A stretch of DNA of 64,000 nt from a bacterium (GTDB taxonomy: Bacteria > Oederibacteriota > Muellerivitia > Muellerivitales > Muellerivitaceae), in the NCBI GenBank assembly GCA_035549195.1, contig DASZRK010000017.1:186001-250000 (forward strand), in the 5' to 3' direction. The notes below the pieces were generated by a model that saw only the letters and a list, made by a program, of their open reading frames with translations, did no database searches and was not told the DNA's origin. Position numbers and translations under genes: made by a program. Shown here in pieces: positions 19,166 through 39,616 of this stretch (position 1 is the stretch's first letter; every line of letters starts with the position of its first letter).

Positions 19166-21190
19166 TTGGCCCACATGACAAGGATCTTGGTTTTATGCGG
19201 CCTGTTCCTCCCTTTTCTTTCCCGATCGGCCCAAGCCGTGACCCCGATGTGGTCCTATTTGGACCTTTTAGCCGGCGAAAGTTCGACCGGACGGGACGAC
19301 GGGGAGTTTAATAAGGCGACCTTCAACCATCCATCGGGTTTGACCATGGACCCTTCGAGCCGGAAGATTTATGTCGCGGATAGGGACAACCATTGCATTC
19401 GGGTCGTGGAATTGGATGAGAACAACAGGGTTTCCACCCTCGTGGGAACCACCCAATCGGGCTACCTGGATGGGCCTTTCGATCGGGCCAGGTTCCGGTC
19501 CCCCACTTCCTTGGTTTTCATAGGTCCGGGCCTTTTGGCGGTCAATGACCAGGGCAATTCCCGGATCCGCCTGGTGGATCTTCCGAATAGGGCTGTGACC
19601 ACCCTGGCCGGGTCCGATGCAGGCGGCCTCTCGGAAGGGCCCGCCCAAAAATGTTCACTTTCCGCCATCTGGAGCATGGACTTCCAGGGCTCCCAGGACT
19701 GCCTTTTCTTTTCCGAACCCGCGCTCGGTTCGGTCCAAAAATTGGACCTCAAAACCAATACCATCACCACCGTCCTTCACGATCGCCCTGAGATCCCGAA
19801 TCCCGAAGCCCTTTGCGTTTGGCAAGAAGGCCTTTATGTCGCGGACCGCAACCTTCCAGGTGTTTACCATTGTCGGCAAACGAAGGACGGAACCGCCCTG
19901 GAACCAATAGGCCAGGGCAAGGCCATCCTGTCCCTCGTGGGCTCCAAAAAAGGCCTCTATGCCCTCCAAAACGACCCAAGCGCGCCCTTCGAACAACTGA
20001 AGCCTTACAACAGGAAGGTCCAATGGGTCTCGGCCTGGGGTGACCCCCTCCCAACGGTCGCGGACAGTGTTCCCTGCTTTGATGGCTTGGGCCCGGAAAG
20101 CAACCTCCAGCTGATCTCCGACCCGTTTTCACCCGATCGTTTTTATATTCCCAGTCCTCAATGGCAGAGTTTGTTCTCGTTCCATGATGTGTTCCAAGAT
20201 GATCTCATCGCCGCGGGACCGGAAATGCCCCTGGCCAGCGGTTTGACCGACTGGGACTATCCCGCGGACAAACCTCCTCATATCTTCCGGATCCTCGTTA
20301 TCGGGGATTCGCATGTTTACCACACCTTTCCCGATGATCAAAAAAAGAAGGGGTGGAACCATGAAAACCTGATGGGCGGATTGACCAAACGCCTGGAATT
20401 GGAATTGAACACCCTGGCCTCCCTGGATGACAACCCCATCCATTTCCAGGTCCTGACCTTGGCCCAGCCCGGTACCCACCCGCTTTTCCTTTGGCCTTAT
20501 TATTTGGCCCCCGATGTGGTCCAAAAATACGATGTGGACCTGGTCCTCTACCTCTTCAGTCCCAACATGTTCACGCCCGATATGTTCGATGGGAGGACGA
20601 CCAATTCCACCGATTTCTCGTTCCAGGATTATTTCATCCGGCCCCTTTCGTCCGAGGGTATCCCCGAGAAGGACCTGGACCCGGAGATCTTGTTGAAGCC
20701 GATCGCCGATAAAATGCCCGGGAACCTGGCGGGTCATTTCTTCGAGCTTTGCCGGTCCAAAAACCTGGCCCGGTCCGACGAAAAGAGCAAGGAACTTTGG
20801 TTCGCCGATTTCAACCGGCTCGTGGCCGAACCCGACATTGAAAAGGACCTTGTCCAGCTCATTGGCAGGCCGATCCGCATGCTCCACGACAAGATCGATC
20901 CCATGAGGACCCACAAGGGGCAACCGGTCGCCCTTCGCCTGGGGATCCTCCCGGTGGGCCAATTCTTCCCCATGAAGGCCCAAATGCCCTTTTGGAACGA
21001 CCTAGGGGATTACACGCACGTCCCATTGTTGGACCTTTCCAAGGATTTCACCGCCTTGCGCCCCGCTTGGTATCCCCTTTCCGACCATAAGGAATACGAC
21101 CACTTCAGTTCCGACGGTTATTTCGTCGAAGCCCTGGTGTTGGCCCACAAATTGATCCAAGAACGGGTGGTTCCTTGGCCTTCCCAATGA
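19166..21190 (+). CDS. Secreted beta-propeller (NHL) + SGNH-like protein, single module
   Basis: A 674-residue exported protein. Signal peptide: LVLCGLFLPFLSRSAQA. The N-terminal half (to about 330) is an NHL-type propeller: KIYVADRDNHCIRVVELDEN, then GLLAVNDQGNSRIRLVDLP and GLYVADRNLPGVYH. The C-terminal half is SGNH-like: block I FRILVIGDSHVYHTF with nucleophile S382, and a terminal acid/His region EYDHFSSDGYFVEAL. It aligns module by module with each half of the 1341-residue protein at 25014-29039, where the first-module serine is also residue 382. The TTG at 19166 follows AAGGA at 7 nt; an ATG at 19175 is the alternative. It probably acts on an envelope polymer with the nearby acylation operon; this is inference. 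Confidence 0.75.
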   Translation: MAHMTRILVLCGLFLPFLSRSAQAVTPMWSYLDLLAGESSTGRDDGEFNKATFNHPSGLTMDPSSRKIYVADRDNHCIRVVELDENNRVSTLVGTTQSGYLDGPFDRARFRSPTSLVFIGPGLLAVNDQGNSRIRLVDLPNRAVTTLAGSDAGGLSEGPAQKCSLSAIWSMDFQGSQDCLFFSEPALGSVQKLDLKTNTITTVLHDRPEIPNPEALCVWQEGLYVADRNLPGVYHCRQTKDGTALEPIGQGKAILSLVGSKKGLYALQNDPSAPFEQLKPYNRKVQWVSAWGDPLPTVADSVPCFDGLGPESNLQLISDPFSPDRFYIPSPQWQSLFSFHDVFQDDLIAAGPEMPLASGLTDWDYPADKPPHIFRILVIGDSHVYHTFPDDQKKKGWNHENLMGGLTKRLELELNTLASLDDNPIHFQVLTLAQPGTHPLFLWPYYLAPDVVQKYDVDLVLYLFSPNMFTPDMFDGRTTNSTDFSFQDYFIRPLSSEGIPEKDLDPEILLKPIADKMPGNLAGHFFELCRSKNLARSDEKSKELWFADFNRLVAEPDIEKDLVQLIGRPIRMLHDKIDPMRTHKGQPVALRLGILPVGQFFPMKAQMPFWNDLGDYTHVPLLDLSKDFTALRPAWYPLSDHKEYDHFSSDGYFVEALVLAHKLIQERVVPWPSQ

Positions 21191-25013: not shown

Positions 25014-28000
25014 TTATTTTGACGTCCCGACCCGGGTTGAGGTTGACGTAAAAGGGACCCAATCCTGCCGGGGTAAATAATAGCTCAAAAGGAAAGCGGC
25101 CAGGGAATTGCCATAGGCCGTGAAATGGCGGTGGCAGCAAGCGTCATGGGTGGGATAGAAGGCGGGCTCCATCGCCGAAAAAGGGGCATCCAGGTCGAAG
25201 AACGGGACCTGGAGCCTGGAATCCAACTCCCTCCAAAAAGCATGGTAATCGGCTTGTGTCTGGGCGTCGGCGTCCCCACTGGGGGCATAACAGATGGCGA
25301 GGCTGACCGGGAATCCCCGACCATCCTTGCGGCGAAGGAGCTTTCTGGCCAGTGACCGTAAAGGGAGTTCCACAAGTTGGAGAAGGTCCTGTCGTAAGGC
25401 TCGGTCCCCGGATCCCAGTAACTGGCCGAAGGGAGCAAAGTGATCCTGGCTGGGCGACTGGTGGTGAATGAATCCTTTCTGTGTCCCGATCCGGTAAAGC
25501 TCCTCGGGTACACCGGGAGGCATACGCTCGGTCGTCGGCTTCAAGAGGTATTCGGGGTCAATCCCCGGAAGGGGGACTCCGTCCTTCCCAAGGGGCTTGA
25601 TGAAATAATCCGTGTAAGCCCCTTCCAGGTCCACGTTGTAGGGTGTGGCCAGGAAAAGGACCCCGTCAACATGGTAGCGGTCCACCAACGCGGGGACTTC
25701 CGAGCAGGCGAAAAATTGGGCGGCCCGACCGGGATGGCCCGCCATCAGGACCTCGTAATGGGTCGGGACACGATGGAGCGCTGCCTGGGTATTGAGTTGG
25801 AACTCCAATTGCTTGGCTAGGGTTAGGGCCCGGGGAGAAGCCATGATCCTCGCCTCCTGGGCGCCCGAATCATTTCCCACTTTGTCATTGGCGTCCGGGG
25901 CATCCCCGGAAAGAACTTGGGAGTCCCCCACCAACAGTATCCGGAAAGTACCGGGGCCCTTTTTTTCAGGGATCCGGAAATCCGTGAGGATTCCGTTTCC
26001 TTCATCGGAGGCCTTATCCCTTCCCTTCCAGGTCCCCTCGTAGCTGTAATCCTTTAAATTCACGATGGATTGTGTGCCTTGGCCGGGTTGGGACACGAAA
26101 ACCCTCCCGGGATAACTGGAAGAGGCGGCGAACCCGACCTTTTGCAGGGCTCTAAAGGACAACAGGGGCGCATAACCCGGATCGATCGAATCAAGCAGGA
26201 AACCCCAAGGCGTCGCGGGATGAAGGGGTTCGTAAGGATTTACCCGAGCCCAAGGCTCCTTCGCGGATTGAAGGGCGTAGAGGACACCTTCGAGCGAAAC
26301 CAACTCCAGGACATGGTCCCCCTTGCCGGCCTCGATCAAGGAGATCGCTCCGCTTGGGGAAGGTCCCTCGATCCCATAAATGGAAGGAAAGTCCCGATCA
26401 GCCACGAAAAGACGATCCCCCGACACACAAAGGGCCTGAGGATGGGGGATCCGGGGGTCCTGGAAAAGGACCTCGCTGACCTTGCCCGTGTCCACTTCCA
26501 TTCTTTGCAAGGATTGTTGACTGGGTCTGGTGAAATAAAGGGACCGGTCGAAGGAACGGTAGGCGATATCCCAGAGGCCATTGAGTGGAGAATCCCGGTT
26601 ATTGGTTTCCGGGAAAGCCCCCAAGGTCGTGACGGCTCCTTGGGCCAAGTCCACCCATCGCAAAGAACCGCTTCCGGCGTCGAAAACCGCCAAATGATCC
26701 GGTGGTACCCAAGCGAGGGCGCTGGGTCGATCGAAGGTCGCCGCCGTGAGGGGACCATCGTTGCGACCACGTTCCCCCGTTCCCGCCAGCGTTCCCACGA
26801 TATTTTCCTGATCCAAACGCACCACTCGCAGGCGTTGGTTGTCCCGGTCCGCCACGAAAAGTCGGGATCCATTATCGTCAAAGGCCAGTCCCACAGGATT
26901 CCGGAACCGGGCTTGGAAAAAAGGCCCATCCCGGAAACCGGCGTCTTCCGAACCGGCCACCTGGTTGTTATAGAGGTCCATCGGGGAAAGGTCCGTGGTA
27001 TCTCCCGCCGCCTTCTCCCCTTCCCGTAAAGGGATCCCTCCTCGGCCCGGGAGGTACCGTTCCAACAAGGCCGCGATCAGGGTATTCCCGCAAGAGGTGT
27101 AATGAAAATGACAGCAGTTCTCATCGACGGGATAGAAGCAGGTCTTCAAGGCATTGAAGGGATCGGTCAGGTCCAGTAATTCCATGGAATAGCGGCCGCA
27201 TAGTTCCCTCCAAAAGGACCTATAGTCCTCCTGGACCAAACCGGCGTTGTCCTTGGAAGGGGCATAACAGACCAGAAATGCAGGCGGATGCTCCAGGGAA
27301 CGAAGTTTGTCTTTGAGGACCTCGAATGGTTTCCCGATCATCTGGACCAGGTCTTCCCGGACCTCCGGGCCCCCTTCCGCCATAAGTTCGCTGAAAAATG
27401 GGAACACCAGCCTTGTGGAAGAGGTCGCCCGGATCCATCCTTTTTTCATGCAGTATCCCAGGAAGCGGGCCGGGACGCCTTCCGGGACCCGGTCCTTCCA
27501 GGGCTTGAGGATGTATTCGGGATCGTCCCTGAGACCCGACGGATCCGGCACATAGGGAATACCATCCGCATCCAGGGGTCTTTCGAAATAGGCCTGATAG
27601 CCCTCCACGGTAAATGGACTGACAAAAGCCAGCACCAGGTCAACCTGATATTGGCGGGCCAGATCCGGGGCCTCCTCCGGGGCGAAATATTGGATATGGG
27701 CCCCAGGACGGCCGAAGGTCAGCACCTCGAAATGGAGGTCCTCGCCCGTGAGGGACGCTCGGGCGTTCAACATCACCTCCAATTGTTTGGGAAAGGTCGC
27801 CGCCCTGAAGGATTTCCGTCCTTGTGTGTCGCCGTTGAAAACGACATTCGCCCTTCCAGCGTCCGGAACGATCGCGGGAGCAGTGATGACCCGGGAATTC
27901 CCCACCACCAGGATGCGGAAAGTCTTGGGCGGCTTTTTGGCCGGATAATCGAAATCCGATAGGGTTCGGTCCCCGATCCGGGATCGGGCCTCCTCGTATT

Positions 28001-29039
28001 TTTCGAATCCATGGTCCTTCACGCTGAGGATCCGGTTACCGGAAGCTCCACAAAGATAAAGCTTGCGGGGCTCTCTTGGGGAAGCCGCCCATCCAGTGGG
28101 AAGAAGGGTAGTCGCTTGAAAGAGGGGCGGTACACCCATGGAGACCGGGTCCAACAAGGATCCCCAAACCGTCGCCAAAGGCACCGATTCATACGAGGGA
28201 ACGACGATGGCCACGGGGATTCCCCCACTTTGAAGGGCATAGACCTTTCCATCCGTTTCGACCATTTCAAGGATGTGTTCCCCTTTTCCAACCTCTTTCA
28301 GGGACGCAATATCCTGGCCTAAATCCCCGCTCGGGGTCGCTCCCACCTCATAAACGGTCGGAAGGTCCGAGTCCGCGGCGTAGATCGCCGTCGCCCCCAC
28401 ACAAAGGGCACGGGGCGAGGGGAGACGGGTATCGTGGGAGAGGACGGTCGATACCCTTTGGCTCCCCAATTCCATACGTTGGAGCAAGTGATCAAGCGGT
28501 CGGGAAAAATAGAGGGAATTGTCCAAAGGCTGGTAGGCCAAGGCCCAGACCGATCCCACGTGGGCTCCCGGGAATGTCCCATCGGTGCCTTTTCCCAAAG
28601 TCGTCACCGACCCTGCCTTCAAGTCCACCAACCGCAGGAGCTGGTTTCCCTGGTCATAGACCGCCAGTTTGTCGGGTGGGATGAAAGCCAGGGCGGTAGG
28701 TTGATTGAATAAGGCTGATCCCAGGGGACCATCCACAAGTCCGGGTATGCCCGTCCCGGTCAGGGACTCCACCCGATTCTGCTCGTCCAGGTGGACCAAC
28801 CGGATCCGGTGGTTCTCCCGGTCCGCTACGAAGAGACGGCTTCCCGTATCGTCGAAGACCAGTCCCCGGGGATCGGAAAAACGCGCCGCCTCGAAGGACC
28901 CATCCTGAAATCCCGAATCTTCCCCTCCCGCCACAAGGCTGTTGTAACTTTCCATCGGTGTCAGGGTTTCGGCCCCTCCGATGGACAATGAAAGGAAGAG
29001 GGTCCCAAGAAAAAAACAAGAACTGGGGAAAAGGGGCAT
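25014..29039 (-). CDS. Giant secreted protein: two tandem [beta-propeller + SGNH] modules
   Basis: A 1341-residue exported protein. Signal peptide: FFLGTLFLSLSIGGAE. Module 1 (about 25-680) has an NHL propeller (RLFVADRENHRIRLVHLDEQ, LAVYDQGNQLLRLVDL) and an SGNH-like domain with block I RILVVGNSRV (S382; GDS changed to GNS) and a terminal DENCCHFHYTSCGN. Module 2 (about 681-1341) repeats this with RLFVADRDNQRLRVVRLDQE, RILLVGDSQV (S1040) and DACCHRHFTAYGN. The serines are 658 residues apart, a clean internal duplication. The D..H-x-T-x-x-GN ending resembles AlgJ/AlgX-type acetyltransferase domains. ATG at 29039 follows GAAGGGA; the longer reading to 29939 is a shadow of the MBOAT gene. It starts 11 nt after the MBOAT gene, so it belongs to this operon. 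Polymer-directed acyl transfer or esterase activity is inferred. Confidence 0.8.
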   Translation of the reverse strand: MPLFPSSCFFLGTLFLSLSIGGAETLTPMESYNSLVAGGEDSGFQDGSFEAARFSDPRGLVFDDTGSRLFVADRENHRIRLVHLDEQNRVESLTGTGIPGLVDGPLGSALFNQPTALAFIPPDKLAVYDQGNQLLRLVDLKAGSVTTLGKGTDGTFPGAHVGSVWALAYQPLDNSLYFSRPLDHLLQRMELGSQRVSTVLSHDTRLPSPRALCVGATAIYAADSDLPTVYEVGATPSGDLGQDIASLKEVGKGEHILEMVETDGKVYALQSGGIPVAIVVPSYESVPLATVWGSLLDPVSMGVPPLFQATTLLPTGWAASPREPRKLYLCGASGNRILSVKDHGFEKYEEARSRIGDRTLSDFDYPAKKPPKTFRILVVGNSRVITAPAIVPDAGRANVVFNGDTQGRKSFRAATFPKQLEVMLNARASLTGEDLHFEVLTFGRPGAHIQYFAPEEAPDLARQYQVDLVLAFVSPFTVEGYQAYFERPLDADGIPYVPDPSGLRDDPEYILKPWKDRVPEGVPARFLGYCMKKGWIRATSSTRLVFPFFSELMAEGGPEVREDLVQMIGKPFEVLKDKLRSLEHPPAFLVCYAPSKDNAGLVQEDYRSFWRELCGRYSMELLDLTDPFNALKTCFYPVDENCCHFHYTSCGNTLIAALLERYLPGRGGIPLREGEKAAGDTTDLSPMDLYNNQVAGSEDAGFRDGPFFQARFRNPVGLAFDDNGSRLFVADRDNQRLRVVRLDQENIVGTLAGTGERGRNDGPLTAATFDRPSALAWVPPDHLAVFDAGSGSLRWVDLAQGAVTTLGAFPETNNRDSPLNGLWDIAYRSFDRSLYFTRPSQQSLQRMEVDTGKVSEVLFQDPRIPHPQALCVSGDRLFVADRDFPSIYGIEGPSPSGAISLIEAGKGDHVLELVSLEGVLYALQSAKEPWARVNPYEPLHPATPWGFLLDSIDPGYAPLLSFRALQKVGFAASSSYPGRVFVSQPGQGTQSIVNLKDYSYEGTWKGRDKASDEGNGILTDFRIPEKKGPGTFRILLVGDSQVLSGDAPDANDKVGNDSGAQEARIMASPRALTLAKQLEFQLNTQAALHRVPTHYEVLMAGHPGRAAQFFACSEVPALVDRYHVDGVLFLATPYNVDLEGAYTDYFIKPLGKDGVPLPGIDPEYLLKPTTERMPPGVPEELYRIGTQKGFIHHQSPSQDHFAPFGQLLGSGDRALRQDLLQLVELPLRSLARKLLRRKDGRGFPVSLAICYAPSGDADAQTQADYHAFWRELDSRLQVPFFDLDAPFSAMEPAFYPTHDACCHRHFTAYGNSLAAFLLSYYLPRQDWVPFTSTSTRVGTSK

Positions 29040-29050
29040 GGCAGGTCCCT

Positions 29051-30256
29051 TCAGAGCTGGAAAAGCCGCACGGTATACTTGAGCACTTGACCCATCGGAT
29101 AGAAGAAGATCAGCCAGCCATAGGCCACGAAGACGTTGGTCACCGCGATGTCGATCCAGCGGCTGAAGGGTCTCCCGGCCCAGGCCTGGCCCGTCCGGGA
29201 CCGGCTCCAAACGCTGTGGAGGGCCAGCCCCGTCCCGTGGTACATGCCCCAGATGCCGAAATGCCAACTGGCCCCGTGCCAAAGCCCGCAGACGAACATG
29301 GTGACCATCAGGTTGAGGAACTTGCGGAGGTCGCCGTGCCGGTTGCCCCCCAAGGGGATATAGATGTAGTCCCGGATCCAACTGCTGAGGGACATGTGCC
29401 AGCGCCGCCAGAAATCGGTGATGTTGCGGGCGATATAGGGGAAGTTGAAATTTTGGGGAAGGTCCAGGCCGATCATGCGCCCCAGGCCGATGGCGATGTC
29501 CGAATAGCCGCTGAAGTCGAAAAGGATCCGCACTGAAAGCAGGGCCATCAACAGGCAGACGGTCCCGAAATGGAGGTCCGTCCGCTTCTCCAAAAGGTGG
29601 ATGACCATCGTCGCGTTGTCCGCGATGACCAGCTTCTTGAAGAATCCCAGCAGGACCTGGGCAAGCCCGACCGCCGCACGTTCCAGGCCCGGCCGTTCCA
29701 GCCCGTTCTCCAGTTGGGCCAGGAAAGGCTGGAAACGCTTGATGGGGCCCGAGACGATGGACGGGAAGAAGATGCAGAAGATCCCGAACTTGAAGGGATT
29801 CTTGACCGGCTCCCCGTGCCCCATATACACGTCGGTCAGGTAATGGACGAACTCGAAGGTGAAGAAGGAGATGGCGAGCGGCATGGCCTGCTGGATGGCG
29901 TTGTGGGTCAGCCAATCCCCGACCGGCCCACCCATCCACGGCCCCAAGGTCCCCAAGAGCAGGGCCCGGTATTTATAGAAGAGAAGACCGCTGACGGGGA
30001 CCAGGAGCGCGGCGGCGAGGACCCATTTCTTCTTCCGGCTTCCTTCCGGGCATCGGAGGATCCATCGGGCCAGGAAAAAGGTGATGACCGCCATGACGAT
30101 GATGGGCAGGACCCCGGCGGGCCCCGCGAAGTGGTAATGGAAAACAGCGCTACAGGCGAGGACGTAATAGAAGCGGAGCCTCGGGTTCGGGACGAGCCAA
30201 AGGACCAAGTAGAAGGCCAGGAAGAACAGAAGGAACCAACTGGTATTGAAGATCAT
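29051..30256 (-). CDS. AlgI-like membrane-bound O-acyltransferase (MBOAT)
   Basis: Inner-membrane O-acyltransferase of 401 residues with about 10 membrane segments. Family motifs: PIKRFQPFLAQL, FSGYSDIAIGLGRMIG, NFNFPYIARNITDFWRRWHM, YIYIPLGGNR, and the catalytic His H327 in CGLWHGASWHFGIWG. In AlgI, DltB and PatA this His passes an acyl group from a cytoplasmic thioester to an extracytoplasmic acceptor. The C-terminus (VLKYTVRLFQL) has no acyl-shuttle hexapeptide; that motif is on the separate microprotein encoded just upstream. Its ATG (30256-30254) overlaps the microprotein stop as TAATG, so the two are translationally coupled. Confidence 0.93.
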   Translation of the reverse strand: MIFNTSWFLLFFLAFYLVLWLVPNPRLRFYYVLACSAVFHYHFAGPAGVLPIIVMAVITFFLARWILRCPEGSRKKKWVLAAALLVPVSGLLFYKYRALLLGTLGPWMGGPVGDWLTHNAIQQAMPLAISFFTFEFVHYLTDVYMGHGEPVKNPFKFGIFCIFFPSIVSGPIKRFQPFLAQLENGLERPGLERAAVGLAQVLLGFFKKLVIADNATMVIHLLEKRTDLHFGTVCLLMALLSVRILFDFSGYSDIAIGLGRMIGLDLPQNFNFPYIARNITDFWRRWHMSLSSWIRDYIYIPLGGNRHGDLRKFLNLMVTMFVCGLWHGASWHFGIWGMYHGTGLALHSVWSRSRTGQAWAGRPFSRWIDIAVTNVFVAYGWLIFFYPMGQVLKYTVRLFQL

Positions 30257-30378
30257 TAAAAATCCACGTAGATGAATTTAGAGGCCGACAGGTCGCCCGA
30301 AAAAAGCAGGATGGCCAGGAAAAGAGCGAAGAGGATCACCCCCAGGGCGAAACCTTTCCAAAATTCGCGGGAATTCAT
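30256..30378 (-). CDS. DltX-like single-TM microprotein ending in FIYVDF
   Basis: A 40-residue protein: short basic N-terminus (MNSREFWKG), one membrane segment (about residues 9-27, ALGVILFALFLAILLF) and an outer tail ending KFIYVDF. Residues 35-40, FIYVDF, fit the FIYxxF C-terminal motif of DltX, whose tyrosine (here Y37) accepts the acyl group from the MBOAT protein and hands it to the SGNH/DltD serine. Its ATG overlaps the SGNH gene stop (ATGA) and its TAA overlaps the MBOAT start (TAATG). So it is locked between its two expected partners. No dltA or dltC is nearby, so the acyl donor probably differs. Role by motif and position; not proven. Confidence 0.82.
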   Translation of the reverse strand: MNSREFWKGFALGVILFALFLAILLFSGDLSASKFIYVDF

Positions 30379-31541
30379 CGCGCCCTCCCGGAAAGGACCG
30401 TCACCAGGTCCCCCGCATAGCGCCGATTGCCTTCGGGGGTCATGTGGCAATGGTCTAAGAACGAGGAGGGCGGATATCGGTCGGCCCAATCCTGATAAGT
30501 GATCCCTTTTTTCAAATAAGGCTTCATGAAGGCCGCCAGGGCCTTCCGGTTCTTCGAAAAGCTGGGCTTGTCCAGGTAACTTCCCAGGAATGGAGGGTTC
30601 TGGGGGGTGAGGACCACCCGCACCGGGATATGGGCGGCGCTCCACTGGTCGAGCACCTGCCTCAAGCAGGTGAAGGGCAGGCCCTTCGGGTCCCAGGTAT
30701 GGGCCTGGTAATAGGAAGCGACCTTTTGTTTGAGGGAAGCCTCCACGATCTCGGACAGGACCTCGTTGGCCGGGACAACCTTCTCCAACTGGCGCTGGAA
30801 GAAATCCTGCTGGCTCGGGTAATACCAAAGGGTCTTGGCCATCTGGGTCTCCCGGAACAGGAACCAATGGCCGCACAGGCCGTCGTAAAGGGCATCGCTG
30901 AGGCGGGCTTCCTCGCCCGGCGCTCGGTCCGATGCCAACCGCTTTTGGATGTCCTCCGGAAGGTCCCCGAGGAGGAATTGCCGGGAAAGGGCTTTGGGAC
31001 CTCCGGCGAATTCCTTTGAGAACATGCGGAAGTTCAGGAGCAGCAGGATCTCACCCGGAGGCGTTGCCGAGAATTCGGCGCTCAACCCCTCGATATCGGT
31101 GAGCAGGAGCCCATCGGACCCAAGGCTCAGGGTTGGCCGGTCCCCCAGGAGTCCCCTCAGGACGGACCGAAGGGTCTTTTGCCGGGCGTCGGGGATCCGG
31201 TGCTCCATCAAGGCGCTGGCGCCCAGGACGCTGTCCCCCAAAAGAAGGATCCGGTCCTTCTGCGGGGCCCCGTAGCGGATGCGGTCCCGGATCTCGGGAA
31301 GGCTGGTCATGTCGCCTGAAAGGTCGAAGTGCCGGTACCAGAACCCCGTGGGGACCGTCATTCTTAAGAGGATCTCCGCCAAGGCCAAAAGACCGAAAAA
31401 GGATGCCGCGGCCCCCAGGAAAAAGGTTTTCGTGAATGTCCTCAAAGGGGCCCCAGGCAAAGGATTCCAGGCAACGCGCCAGATTCTATCACTCTTCTTC
31501 CAAGCCGCTCGAGCAACAGCCCCCGGAAAGGGTGAACTCAT
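30375..31541 (-). CDS. Membrane-anchored SGNH acyltransferase (AlgJ/DltD-like)
   Basis: A 388-residue protein with an N-terminal membrane anchor (about residues 38-58, FFLGAAASFFGLLALAEILL) and a periplasmic SGNH domain. Block I is RILLLGDSVLGASAL with nucleophile S104; the C-terminal pair is D363/H366 in FLDHCHMTPEGNRRYAGDL. This is the usual partner of an MBOAT protein and takes the acyl group to the final polymer. It is the first gene of the operon; its stop overlaps the microprotein start (ATGA). The start is uncertain: TTG 31544 and ATG 31541 are adjacent, and an internal TTG just before the TM segment is possible. No strong Shine-Dalgarno site is seen. Confidence 0.85.
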   Translation of the reverse strand: MSSPFPGAVARAAWKKSDRIWRVAWNPLPGAPLRTFTKTFFLGAAASFFGLLALAEILLRMTVPTGFWYRHFDLSGDMTSLPEIRDRIRYGAPQKDRILLLGDSVLGASALMEHRIPDARQKTLRSVLRGLLGDRPTLSLGSDGLLLTDIEGLSAEFSATPPGEILLLLNFRMFSKEFAGGPKALSRQFLLGDLPEDIQKRLASDRAPGEEARLSDALYDGLCGHWFLFRETQMAKTLWYYPSQQDFFQRQLEKVVPANEVLSEIVEASLKQKVASYYQAHTWDPKGLPFTCLRQVLDQWSAAHIPVRVVLTPQNPPFLGSYLDKPSFSKNRKALAAFMKPYLKKGITYQDWADRYPPSSFLDHCHMTPEGNRRYAGDLVTVLSGRAR

Positions 31542-36395: not shown

Positions 36396-36998
36396 CTAGT
36401 CCTTCGGCATCTCATAGGCCGCGTAGAAGGTTTCCCGCGCGCGGATGCGCCGCCCCGTGGCCGGGTCCCGGGCCACGTGCTCGTTGGGTCCCCGGTCATA
36501 GAAACTGAACTGACGGCGGTGGATGCGCGGCGGCTTGCGGGATTCGGACGCGTCGATGTAGGTCACCACCATGTCGTTGAAATTCTCCACCAGACCGCAG
36601 TGGGTGTCCGTGTCCTTCTCGTCGATATGGCCGTCGCCGTTCTTATCGTAGGTCTTGTTGAAGATGAGGATATCCCCGGGTTGGATATCGGCGGCATGGG
36701 CCCGCCTTTTCCCGTGCTGTTCCATGTAGATGCGAAGGTCCTTGGTGAGGTTATGGCCCAGGTAGCCGAACTTGGAGAAGAACTTGTCCATGACCGCCGA
36801 GTGGTAACAGGCCAGCACGAAATGGGAGCAATCGATCTTCCAGTCAGGCCTTTGCCAAAGATAGGCCTCGGCGTTGCGGATGGCCTCCTCGGGTGATGCC
36901 GTGGGGCCATGCTCGATGGCCGCGTAGCGGCCCGTGGCGCAACCGCCCAGAAGGAGGCCGACCAGGGCCAGTGCCAGGGAAAAGGATGGCTTTCTCAT
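36396..36998 (-). CDS. Lipoprotein with NlpC/P60-CHAP-like domain and an EF-hand-type loop
   Basis: A 200-residue lipoprotein: signal sequence with lipobox LLGGC (C20). The domain has DWKIDCSHFVLACYH (candidate nucleophile C57), AADIQPGDILIFNK and THCGLVENF (candidate H133), the pattern of Cys peptidases or amidases acting on peptidoglycan. Between these lies residues 118-129, DKNGDGHIDEKD, a near-perfect 12-residue EF-hand calcium loop (D1, N3, D5, G6, I8, D9, acidic 12). The start ATG at 36998 overlaps the mprF-like stop (ATGA), so it is coupled to it. A calcium-tuned cell-wall hydrolase is the simplest reading; catalytic assignment is inference. Confidence 0.72.
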   Translation of the reverse strand: MRKPSFSLALALVGLLLGGCATGRYAAIEHGPTASPEEAIRNAEAYLWQRPDWKIDCSHFVLACYHSAVMDKFFSKFGYLGHNLTKDLRIYMEQHGKRRAHAADIQPGDILIFNKTYDKNGDGHIDEKDTDTHCGLVENFNDMVVTYIDASESRKPPRIHRRQFSFYDRGPNEHVARDPATGRRIRARETFYAAYEMPKD

Positions 36999-39616
36999 TT
37001 CTTGAACCTCACCCGGCTCCCCTGCGCGATGAGGGACTGGATGTCCTGGAAAGCCGCCGGAAGGGAAAGGTTGGCCGGGGCGGCCAGGTAGAGGGTGCTC
37101 CAGTGGGCGTTGAAACGGTCCATCTCCTTGCGCACATCGACGGGCCGGGGCCGCGTGATGCCCGGGGAAAGGATCTCGGCCAGCTTTTCCTTGAAGGCCG
37201 CCAAGGGCCCGCCTTCCAGGTCCAGGGTCGGGGCCGTCCCCAGATGGAACCACTGGAAGCCCTGGGCCGAAGCCCAGGCCATGCATTCCAGGAGCAGGTA
37301 ATCCTCCACCCCCTCCGGGCTTTCCGCCCCCCAGCGCAACAGGTCCACCGAGATCTCGGCCTTGTCCGCCGTGGCCAGCAGGTTGGCGAAGGCCACCAGC
37401 TTCCCTTCCTGGCGCACCAGCCCCAGAGGAAGGTAGTTCAGGTAGCGCTCCTGGAAGAAACCGCCGGAGAAGCCCTTCTCCCGGCCCTTGATCTTGCGCA
37501 GCCACTCTTCGGAGATGCGCCCCAACTCGGGAGCCAGGGCCTTGAAGGAACCCTCCGGCATTACCTCGAAGGTCAGGTCCGCGTTCCCCTTGAGGCGTTG
37601 GTGGTTGTGCTTGAGGTCCGTCGAAGGGATGCCCTCCACCTGGAAACCCGTCAATGGCATGCGGGCTTTTTCCGCCACCTTCATGACCGAAAGCCCCATA
37701 TCCAGGTAGAACTGGGAATGATCGGGCTCCACCAGGAAGAAAAGAGGCCAGGTTTTCTTGCGGCGGCAAAGGTCCTGGAATCGGAGCGCCAGGTCCTCCC
37801 GTTCCTTCGCCTCCCCCACCGGATCCCCCAGCACCACCCAGCTCTTGCCCTCGATGGCATACATGAGGAAGGCGTCCTCCTTCTTGTTGAAGAAGAGGGC
37901 CTTATCCCCGGCGAGAGCCAACAGGTTCATGGAACGGGAGGATCGCCGCAGGATCCCCAAGGCGCGGTTCAATTCCCCCATGCCGGGGGTATCGGTCTCC
38001 GGCTGGGTCGGGGATAAAAGGGCGATGAGGGAAAAAATGGCCAAGGTCACCGTGGAAAGGAGCCCGGATCGCAGGAACCGGGCCGAGTCCCCGGTCAGGT
38101 CAAAACTGTTCCAAAGGGAGGGGTCATAGTCCTCCTGGCGGTAGTTGAAGACCCCGACCCAGATGAAGCTCAAGAGCACGAAAAGGATGGCCGTCACCCA
38201 AAGGGGCGGGAACCTTTGCTGGAAGACCGAATTGCGGCGGGTGAAGTAAAGTCCGCAGGGCAACAACGCCCCGAAAAGGATGAGCAGGGTCAGGGACTCC
38301 TTGTAGTCGAAACCCTTGAAGAGGGCGCCCAGGACGCCCAGCCCCAACAGGACCAACGCCATCCAATAGGCCGAGCGCAGGCGCTGTTGGAGCCCGCGAC
38401 CGGTGACCAGGAGCAGGGCGCCGGTGAGCCCCATCAGAAGGTGGGACCCTTCGATCATCCCCAGGGGGAGGGATTCATTGAGCCAAAGCAGGCGGCGCGG
38501 GGTCTCGGGAAATGCGTTGGCCATCACCGCGAAGGCTCCCGCCAGGAAGGTGGCCCATCCGAAGATGTGCGGGGCGATATCGGGCGCGAATCGGTTGAGG
38601 ATGAGCAGGCCCCGGCGGAAGCCCTCCTTGTTACGGACGATCTCGTAACCGGCGAAGCTGAGCAGGCCCATCAGGAAGGGGATGAAGTAGTAGCAGATCC
38701 GGAAGGCCAGCAGGGCCCCGGCCACGCTGGTGGCGGGCAAGGCCGGCTCCAGGGTCTCCAGGATGATGACGTCCAGCACACCCAACCCTCCCGGCACCTG
38801 GCTGAGGAACCCCAGGAGCTGGGCGGAGAGGTAGATGGTCATGAAGGATGGGAAGGTGAGGGAGGAATGGGGCAGGAGAAGATAGAGGACCGAACCGGAA
38901 CAGGTCCAGTCCAGGCAACCCGCCGCCATCTGTCCCAGGGCGATGGGTAGGCTGGGCGTTGGGAAATGCCACTTGGCGATGCGGATCGTTCCCCGCACGA
39001 AAAGCGCGCTCAAGAGATAGGCCGTGATGGCCAACACGCAGAAAACACCCAGACCGAAGACCAGGCCGGAAAAGACCGTGGAATCGAATTGGAAGGTACC
39101 GAAGAAGAAATGGGCGGGCGGCAACTGGAAAGGCGGCAGTTCCGGCGGCTGGAGGAAGAAAAAGAGGGCCCCCATCGTCATGAAACCCACCCAGAAGGTC
39201 ATGCCGCAGATGAGCAGCACGCTGGCCGACTCTCCCGCCGTCAGGCCCCAGGCCGAATAGAACCGGTAACGGATGCCGCCGCCCGTGATGGGCGCCGCCC
39301 CGACGTTATGGCTGAGGCTGTAGGCCACGAAGGAGGTCAGGGCCGTCCGCCAGTAGGACATGGACTTCTTGATGTGCTTGATCCCGAGCACATCGTAGAG
39401 GGTGAGGGCGAAGTAACTGCCCATGGAGGCCAGCAGGGCCAGGAGGAACTGTCGGGCCGGGATCTCTTGGAAATATTCCAGGACCTGGTCCAGCCGGTTC
39501 ATGCGCACTTCCCGGCGGAGGGTCCCCAGGGCCAGGAAGAAAAGGATCATGACCGCCAGGATGGTCAGGGTCTGGAGGATCTTCTTTCGGTTCTGGGCTT
39601 GTTGGTTTTGATCCAT
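36995..39616 (-). CDS. mprF: MprF-like bifunctional lipid aminoacyltransferase/flippase
   Basis: An 873-residue polytopic membrane protein. The N-terminal part (about 1-320) is the flippase-like UPF0104 domain (SHNVGAAPITGGGIRYRFYS, VPGGLGVLDVIILETLEPAL). A second TM block follows to about 540. The C-terminal soluble GNAT-like synthase domain has KSWVVLGDPVGEAKEREDL, FLVEPDHSQFYLDMGLSVMK, EKGFSGGFFQERYL and DYLLLECMAWASAQGF. MprF uses aminoacyl-tRNA to add Lys or Ala to phosphatidylglycerol and flips the product, which lowers surface charge and gives resistance to cationic peptides. Substrate is not predictable here. It is coupled to the NlpC/P60-like lipoprotein downstream. Confidence 0.9.
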   Translation of the reverse strand: MDQNQQAQNRKKILQTLTILAVMILFFLALGTLRREVRMNRLDQVLEYFQEIPARQFLLALLASMGSYFALTLYDVLGIKHIKKSMSYWRTALTSFVAYSLSHNVGAAPITGGGIRYRFYSAWGLTAGESASVLLICGMTFWVGFMTMGALFFFLQPPELPPFQLPPAHFFFGTFQFDSTVFSGLVFGLGVFCVLAITAYLLSALFVRGTIRIAKWHFPTPSLPIALGQMAAGCLDWTCSGSVLYLLLPHSSLTFPSFMTIYLSAQLLGFLSQVPGGLGVLDVIILETLEPALPATSVAGALLAFRICYYFIPFLMGLLSFAGYEIVRNKEGFRRGLLILNRFAPDIAPHIFGWATFLAGAFAVMANAFPETPRRLLWLNESLPLGMIEGSHLLMGLTGALLLVTGRGLQQRLRSAYWMALVLLGLGVLGALFKGFDYKESLTLLILFGALLPCGLYFTRRNSVFQQRFPPLWVTAILFVLLSFIWVGVFNYRQEDYDPSLWNSFDLTGDSARFLRSGLLSTVTLAIFSLIALLSPTQPETDTPGMGELNRALGILRRSSRSMNLLALAGDKALFFNKKEDAFLMYAIEGKSWVVLGDPVGEAKEREDLALRFQDLCRRKKTWPLFFLVEPDHSQFYLDMGLSVMKVAEKARMPLTGFQVEGIPSTDLKHNHQRLKGNADLTFEVMPEGSFKALAPELGRISEEWLRKIKGREKGFSGGFFQERYLNYLPLGLVRQEGKLVAFANLLATADKAEISVDLLRWGAESPEGVEDYLLLECMAWASAQGFQWFHLGTAPTLDLEGGPLAAFKEKLAEILSPGITRPRPVDVRKEMDRFNAHWSTLYLAAPANLSLPAAFQDIQSLIAQGSRVRFKK

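Follow-up and report, generated by a model that had tools for sequence, protein, structure and literature searches.

Two kinds of described system stand closest to the locus analyzed here. In the Dlt system, the carrier protein DltC docks on helix HC of the MBOAT protein DltB, at Met302, Val305, Ile306, Met309, and Lys312 (PMC11035591). In C. jejuni PatA, a fused enzyme that uses acetyl-CoA, the tyrosine of a FIYSSF motif becomes acetylated (PMC12148441). A 2025 paper states that, apart from Dlt, no MBOAT/SGNH pathway has a DltX-like microprotein, the motif being part of the MBOAT itself (PMC12148441), and we found no published report of such a microprotein in a non-Dlt MBOAT/SGNH system in the open-licence literature. 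Judged from their sequences, loci in at least two phyla contradict that statement. One of them is an operon that, as we hold with good confidence, probably encodes a diderm MBOAT/shuttle/SGNH machine for acylating an envelope polymer, with a free shuttle and probably driven by acyl-CoA. Its components belong to known kinds, and the proposed mechanism is borrowed; the free shuttle outside the Dlt context is the new part.

Organization of the operon

The operon lies on the minus strand of a 64-kb stretch of DNA (the window) and comprises, in order of transcription, the following genes:

30375..31541, minus strand: putative SGNH-family membrane-anchored acyltransferase, 388 aa, with S104 and D363/H366 as catalytic candidates
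30256..30378, minus strand: candidate acyl-shuttle microprotein, 40 aa, with one TM helix and a C-terminal FIYVDF (Tyr37)
29051..30256, minus strand: MBOAT (PF03062), 401 aa, with H327 and without a C-terminal two-helix/hexapeptide extension
25014..29039, minus strand: NHL beta-propeller and SGNH protein, 1341 aa, with NHL repeats and an internal duplication

All four reading frames were found where the original prediction had placed them, as were the ATGA overlap between the SGNH and microprotein genes, the TAATG at the microprotein/MBOAT junction, and the gap of 11 nt between the MBOAT and NHL/SGNH genes. For the first gene, the alignment of orthologs suggests a possible TTG start near 31445 instead of the ATG at 31541. 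Omp85/BamA is present in the genomes tested (from the window's phylum, FCPU426/Goldbacteria-type), and the hosts are therefore diderm, in agreement with the Gram-negative-type setting proposed earlier. About 6 kb from the operon, at 36995-39616 (minus strand), a gene encodes an 873-aa protein whose C-terminal domain is of the phosphatidylglycerol lysyltransferase (MprF) type, possibly a second modifier of envelope charge.

The candidate active-site residues of both enzymes, named beforehand from a single sequence, proved to be invariant. In the SGNH protein, G102-D103-S104 (the GDS motif) and D363-H364-C365-H366 are among 42 columns without variation in eight orthologs. Against Pfam, this protein gave sub-threshold GDSL matches alone; its AlphaFold model (pLDDT 78) had the DltD structures 6pfx and 3bma as top PDB fold matches, with E values of about 1e-5 to 1e-4 and modest TM scores (0.36-0.47). 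The MBOAT, the single one in its 3.2-Mb genome, scored 98.6 bits against PF03062, and its H327, which lies in a WHG motif that aligns with DltB, is likewise invariant in eight orthologs. As predicted, it terminates in VRLFQL, with no C-terminal hexapeptide. The earlier description as an "AlgI-like MBOAT" held for the family but was too narrow in its qualifier, the best named match being a sub-threshold one to DltB (NCBIfam TIGR04091; 196 bits, below the 375-bit cut-off).

The microprotein is a conserved gene

The microprotein (MNSREFWKGFALGVILFALFLAILLFSGDLSASKFIYVDF; 30378-30256, minus strand) is the only FIYVDF-type TM microprotein open reading frame that the uniform search described below found in the whole window. 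Orthologous MBOATs, with 54-81% identity, were present in eight genomes including the window's own, and each of the eight loci contained the microprotein, ending in GDLSASKFIYVDF or QDLSSS(K/Q)FIYVDF. We looked specifically for orthologous loci in which the C-terminal FIYxxF had been lost and found the hexapeptide motif invariant in all eight. In pairs among five genomes of the family, pS ranged from 0.47 to 0.76 and pN from 0.05 to 0.15 (36 codons), and the last 13 codons had accumulated no nonsynonymous differences versus two to seven synonymous ones per pair. The microprotein is thus a real gene under purifying selection; a chance open reading frame was ruled out by this selection, by the conservation in eight of eight loci, and by the absence of such a frame from 34 control loci with fused MBOATs.

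Lysine and arginine residues precede the TM helix, and the tail is rich in aspartate and net acidic in the window's group. This distribution of charges favors an N-in/C-out topology over the cytoplasmic C terminus that would be at odds with the original prediction.

A scan of public contigs with the pattern S[KQ]FIYVDF (the L027 row of the query alignment had an assumed start Met) returned matches whose titles named candidate division FCPU426, Goldiibacteriota, and Firestonebacteria MAGs, i.e., solely the window's organism group, because the pattern was narrow. Shuttles outside this group were found by inspecting short MBOATs.

Free and fused hexapeptides are complementary

Fused MBOATs, whether from the window's phylum or from elsewhere, end in a motif of their own (FIYFQF-like) and are mostly 450-532 aa long, whereas motif-less MBOATs measure 378-414 aa and lack one whole helix besides the shuttle helix. 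When both kinds of locus were searched uniformly for a microprotein with a TM helix, Tyr at position -4, Phe or Leu at -1, and a start codon in range, exactly one on the same strand was found in each of 14 motif-less loci, versus none in 34 fused loci. Eight of these 14 represent the window's phylum, in which every motif-less MBOAT has a separate shuttle; the six others lie outside it, with shuttles ending in FMYAVF, FIYAMF, VIYRGF, FVYLNL, TIYATF, and FRYMHF. A second phylum (seven genomes) contributed 18 motif-less MBOATs, 13 of which had a shuttle on the same strand within approximately 1.5 kb and one a convergent shuttle; none was found for the remaining four, wider flanks included, or near the nine fused loci of that phylum. 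Outside the window's phylum, the 20 motif-less MBOATs thus comprised 15 with a same-strand TM shuttle (Tyr at -4; within approximately 1.5 kb), one with a convergent shuttle, and four with none, and a same-strand shuttle was absent from all 43 fused-motif loci surveyed.

Tyr at -4 and Phe or Leu at -1 are common to all 24 natural shuttle sequences, as the search criteria dictate. Phe at the first motif position (-6) is usual as well, and its occurrence in 13 of 16 shuttles from outside the phylum argues against chance, since this position was left out of the criteria. An SGNH partner was found in the split loci examined. Moreover, the window's SGNH protein, compared as a profile, matched its counterparts in split systems of other phyla (probability 98.9, E 1e-17), so that the type of SGNH protein, as well as the arrangement of the shuttle, is common to both groups. 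In summary, the split and fused architectures are complementary, perfectly so in the window's phylum, and the free-shuttle system extends throughout that phylum and is found again in at least one more.

Several loci deserve separate mention. At L070 (822-6356), a split system with the shuttle FVYLNL has as neighbors an AMP ligase and a further ligase that is joined to a phosphopantetheine carrier domain; this Dlt-like pathway, with ligase and carrier in one protein, was not counted as non-Dlt evidence. The four motif-less MBOATs without a detected shuttle nearby (L169, L170, L171, and L172), several of which have a candidate SGNH neighbor, may be served by a shuttle supplied in trans or by one with another motif. 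The convergent shuttle, FVYAMF, is located at L173 (6374, minus strand), on the strand opposite to its SGNH-MBOAT pair. Finally, the fused MBOAT of L017/L022 (G027:C54) is spread over two frames with a stop and represents a pseudogene or an assembly error.

Evolution of the MBOAT

In a tree of 71 MBOAT cores, from which the C-terminal tails had been cut, a single branch (100/100) separated all 43 fused enzymes from the three DltBs and every split system, and the sister group of the fused enzymes was that of the window (99/95). A first tree, tails included, gave the same picture (98/93). According to these trees, both unrooted, one fusion or one fission suffices, with the direction depending on the root. 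Formally, a single fission could have occurred on the branch that leads to the split side; the split state would then have come about by local breakage of a gene for a fused MBOAT and would not represent an ancestral architecture of its own. Such an origin, which would be compatible with the same mechanism, seems unlikely to us: DltB, two phyla, and two further genomes are all represented on the split side, the motif-less MBOATs are shorter by an additional helix besides that of the shuttle, and two gene orders occur within the phylum. The window's family has the order SGNH-shuttle-MBOAT and other families have NHL/SGNH-MBOAT-SGNH-shuttle, so the association of shuttle and MBOAT has outlasted rearrangement. 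A comparison of the shuttle helix with fused MBOATs, made after masking the motif to look for homology to their last helix, placed the best match in the tail in just 10 of 41 cases.

We see an even chance that MBOAT/SGNH systems with a free shuttle and no dependence on a carrier form an unrecognized, possibly ancestral class. If so, the DltX-type peptide would predate Dlt, the fused enzymes (PatA, AlgI, etc.) would stem from one joining event, and the window's lineage would be their closest extant unfused relative.

Relation to the Dlt pathway

Several features would fit a Dlt system that has diverged, adding D-alanine or another amino acid to an envelope polymer, with its ligase and carrier encoded elsewhere: the architecture is split as in Dlt, DltB is the best NCBIfam match of the MBOAT, the SGNH fold is nearest to DltD, and a gene for an MprF-type lysyl-PG synthase is close by. 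Additionally, while the window's microprotein did not match Pfam DltX (PF12459, threshold 25 bits), that of a relative (L033) reached 17.1 bits (E 0.0039), compared to 53 bits for S. aureus DltX in the same run. We nevertheless regard a divergent Dlt system as quite improbable. In line with the original prediction, which had noted no DltA/DltC-type carrier gene, none of 12 genomes with split systems, the window's own included, contained a match to DltC (TIGR01688) or a DltA (TIGR01734) above the cut-off (own best, 56 bits versus a cut-off of 560), and the Dlt-positive controls (B. subtilis and L. lactis for DltC) were detected correctly. No DltB above 375 bits was found in 369 genomes; the window's MBOAT stays far below that value and fused MBOATs score about as high, which renders this family useless as a discriminator. 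In the alignment, IPLGGNR, a loop shared with fused enzymes, stands in the window's MBOAT where DltB has the segment with the DltC-docking residues, which is missing, and the tree joins this MBOAT to those enzymes and not to DltB.

With no match above the DltA, DltC, or DltB family cut-offs in the genomes searched, a hidden Dlt system was rejected. Membership of the SGNH protein in the DltD family was rejected as well, its profile having yielded no match to three DltD sequences (hhalign probability 3).

The NHL/SGNH protein

The 1341-aa protein is an internal tandem duplication, with two halves of about 660 aa that are 44% identical; the homologue is single-copy in three relatives (L028, L031, and L033) and is found near the operon, on the same strand, in seven of the eight loci. 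Its predicted model matches NHL propellers. In the alignment, the GxS serine and a C-terminal His are conserved and the usual Asp is not, which makes catalysis by this protein unsure. A second NHL-repeat protein in the window (674 aa, 19166-21190, plus strand) resembles the halves of the operon's protein, and NHL-repeat paralogs flank the operon in relatives too.

Proposed mechanism

Taken together, the conservation and selection of the microprotein, the complementarity of split and fused loci, and the absence of DltA and DltC support the acylation system with a free shuttle peptide that was originally predicted. The chemical steps are inferred by analogy, as are donor, acyl group, and acceptor. 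The MBOAT would take an acyl group, probably acetyl or another short acyl, from a cytoplasmic thioester and pass it through its central lumen, past His327, to Tyr37 of the free microprotein, whose C terminus would be periplasmic. The acyl-tyrosine would then swing to Ser104 of the SGNH protein, which would move the acyl group onto an envelope glycan, with the NHL/SGNH protein probably acting as a second, polymer-binding SGNH partner. Direct use of acyl-CoA appears the likelier source, because the MBOAT has no docking segment and carries the IPLGGNR of fused enzymes, one of which, PatA, uses acetyl-CoA; a housekeeping acyl carrier protein is a possible alternative donor. That the microprotein is instead a structural or regulatory subunit, with the MBOAT delivering its acyl group in some other way to the SGNH protein or polymer, might explain the degenerate first motif position of some outside shuttles (TIYATF and VIYRGF) and the four motif-less MBOATs without a detectable shuttle, but is highly improbable given that the tyrosine and its flanking aromatics are the acylated site in PatA and DltX (PMC12148441) and that the motif is invariant in orthologs and present exactly where the MBOAT has none.

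As far as this shuttle mechanism holds, the loci uncouple the free shuttle from a carrier-protein donor and suggest a single origin of the fused enzymes. A free shuttle with a carrier-independent MBOAT would also make a convenient test system, in which the shuttle is open to exchange or mutation while the MBOAT stays unaltered.

Comparison with known systems

The system resembles the DltB-DltX-DltD core of the Dlt pathway, which D-alanylates teichoic acids in Gram-positive bacteria and is the only pathway credited with this arrangement in published work, in its free single-TM microprotein with a C-terminal F-I-Y-x-x-F, its motif-less MBOAT, and its membrane-anchored SGNH partner. It differs in having neither DltA nor DltC, a diderm host, another gene order, an MBOAT that has no DltC-docking helix and clusters with fused enzymes, an SGNH protein that cannot be aligned to DltD by sequence, and a microprotein below the Pfam DltX threshold. 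With the fused pairs of the PatA/PatB and AlgI/AlgJ type, it has in common the IPLGGNR loop, the apparent lack of a dedicated carrier, the diderm host, and the SGNH partner; their hexapeptide, however, is borne by two additional helices at the C terminus of the MBOAT, whereas here it is found on a free microprotein. The AT3-SGNH proteins (OatA type) would, by published analogy, have a comparable acyl-Tyr-to-Ser relay across the membrane, but their membrane domain is unrelated, and the system described here contains no AT3 domain.
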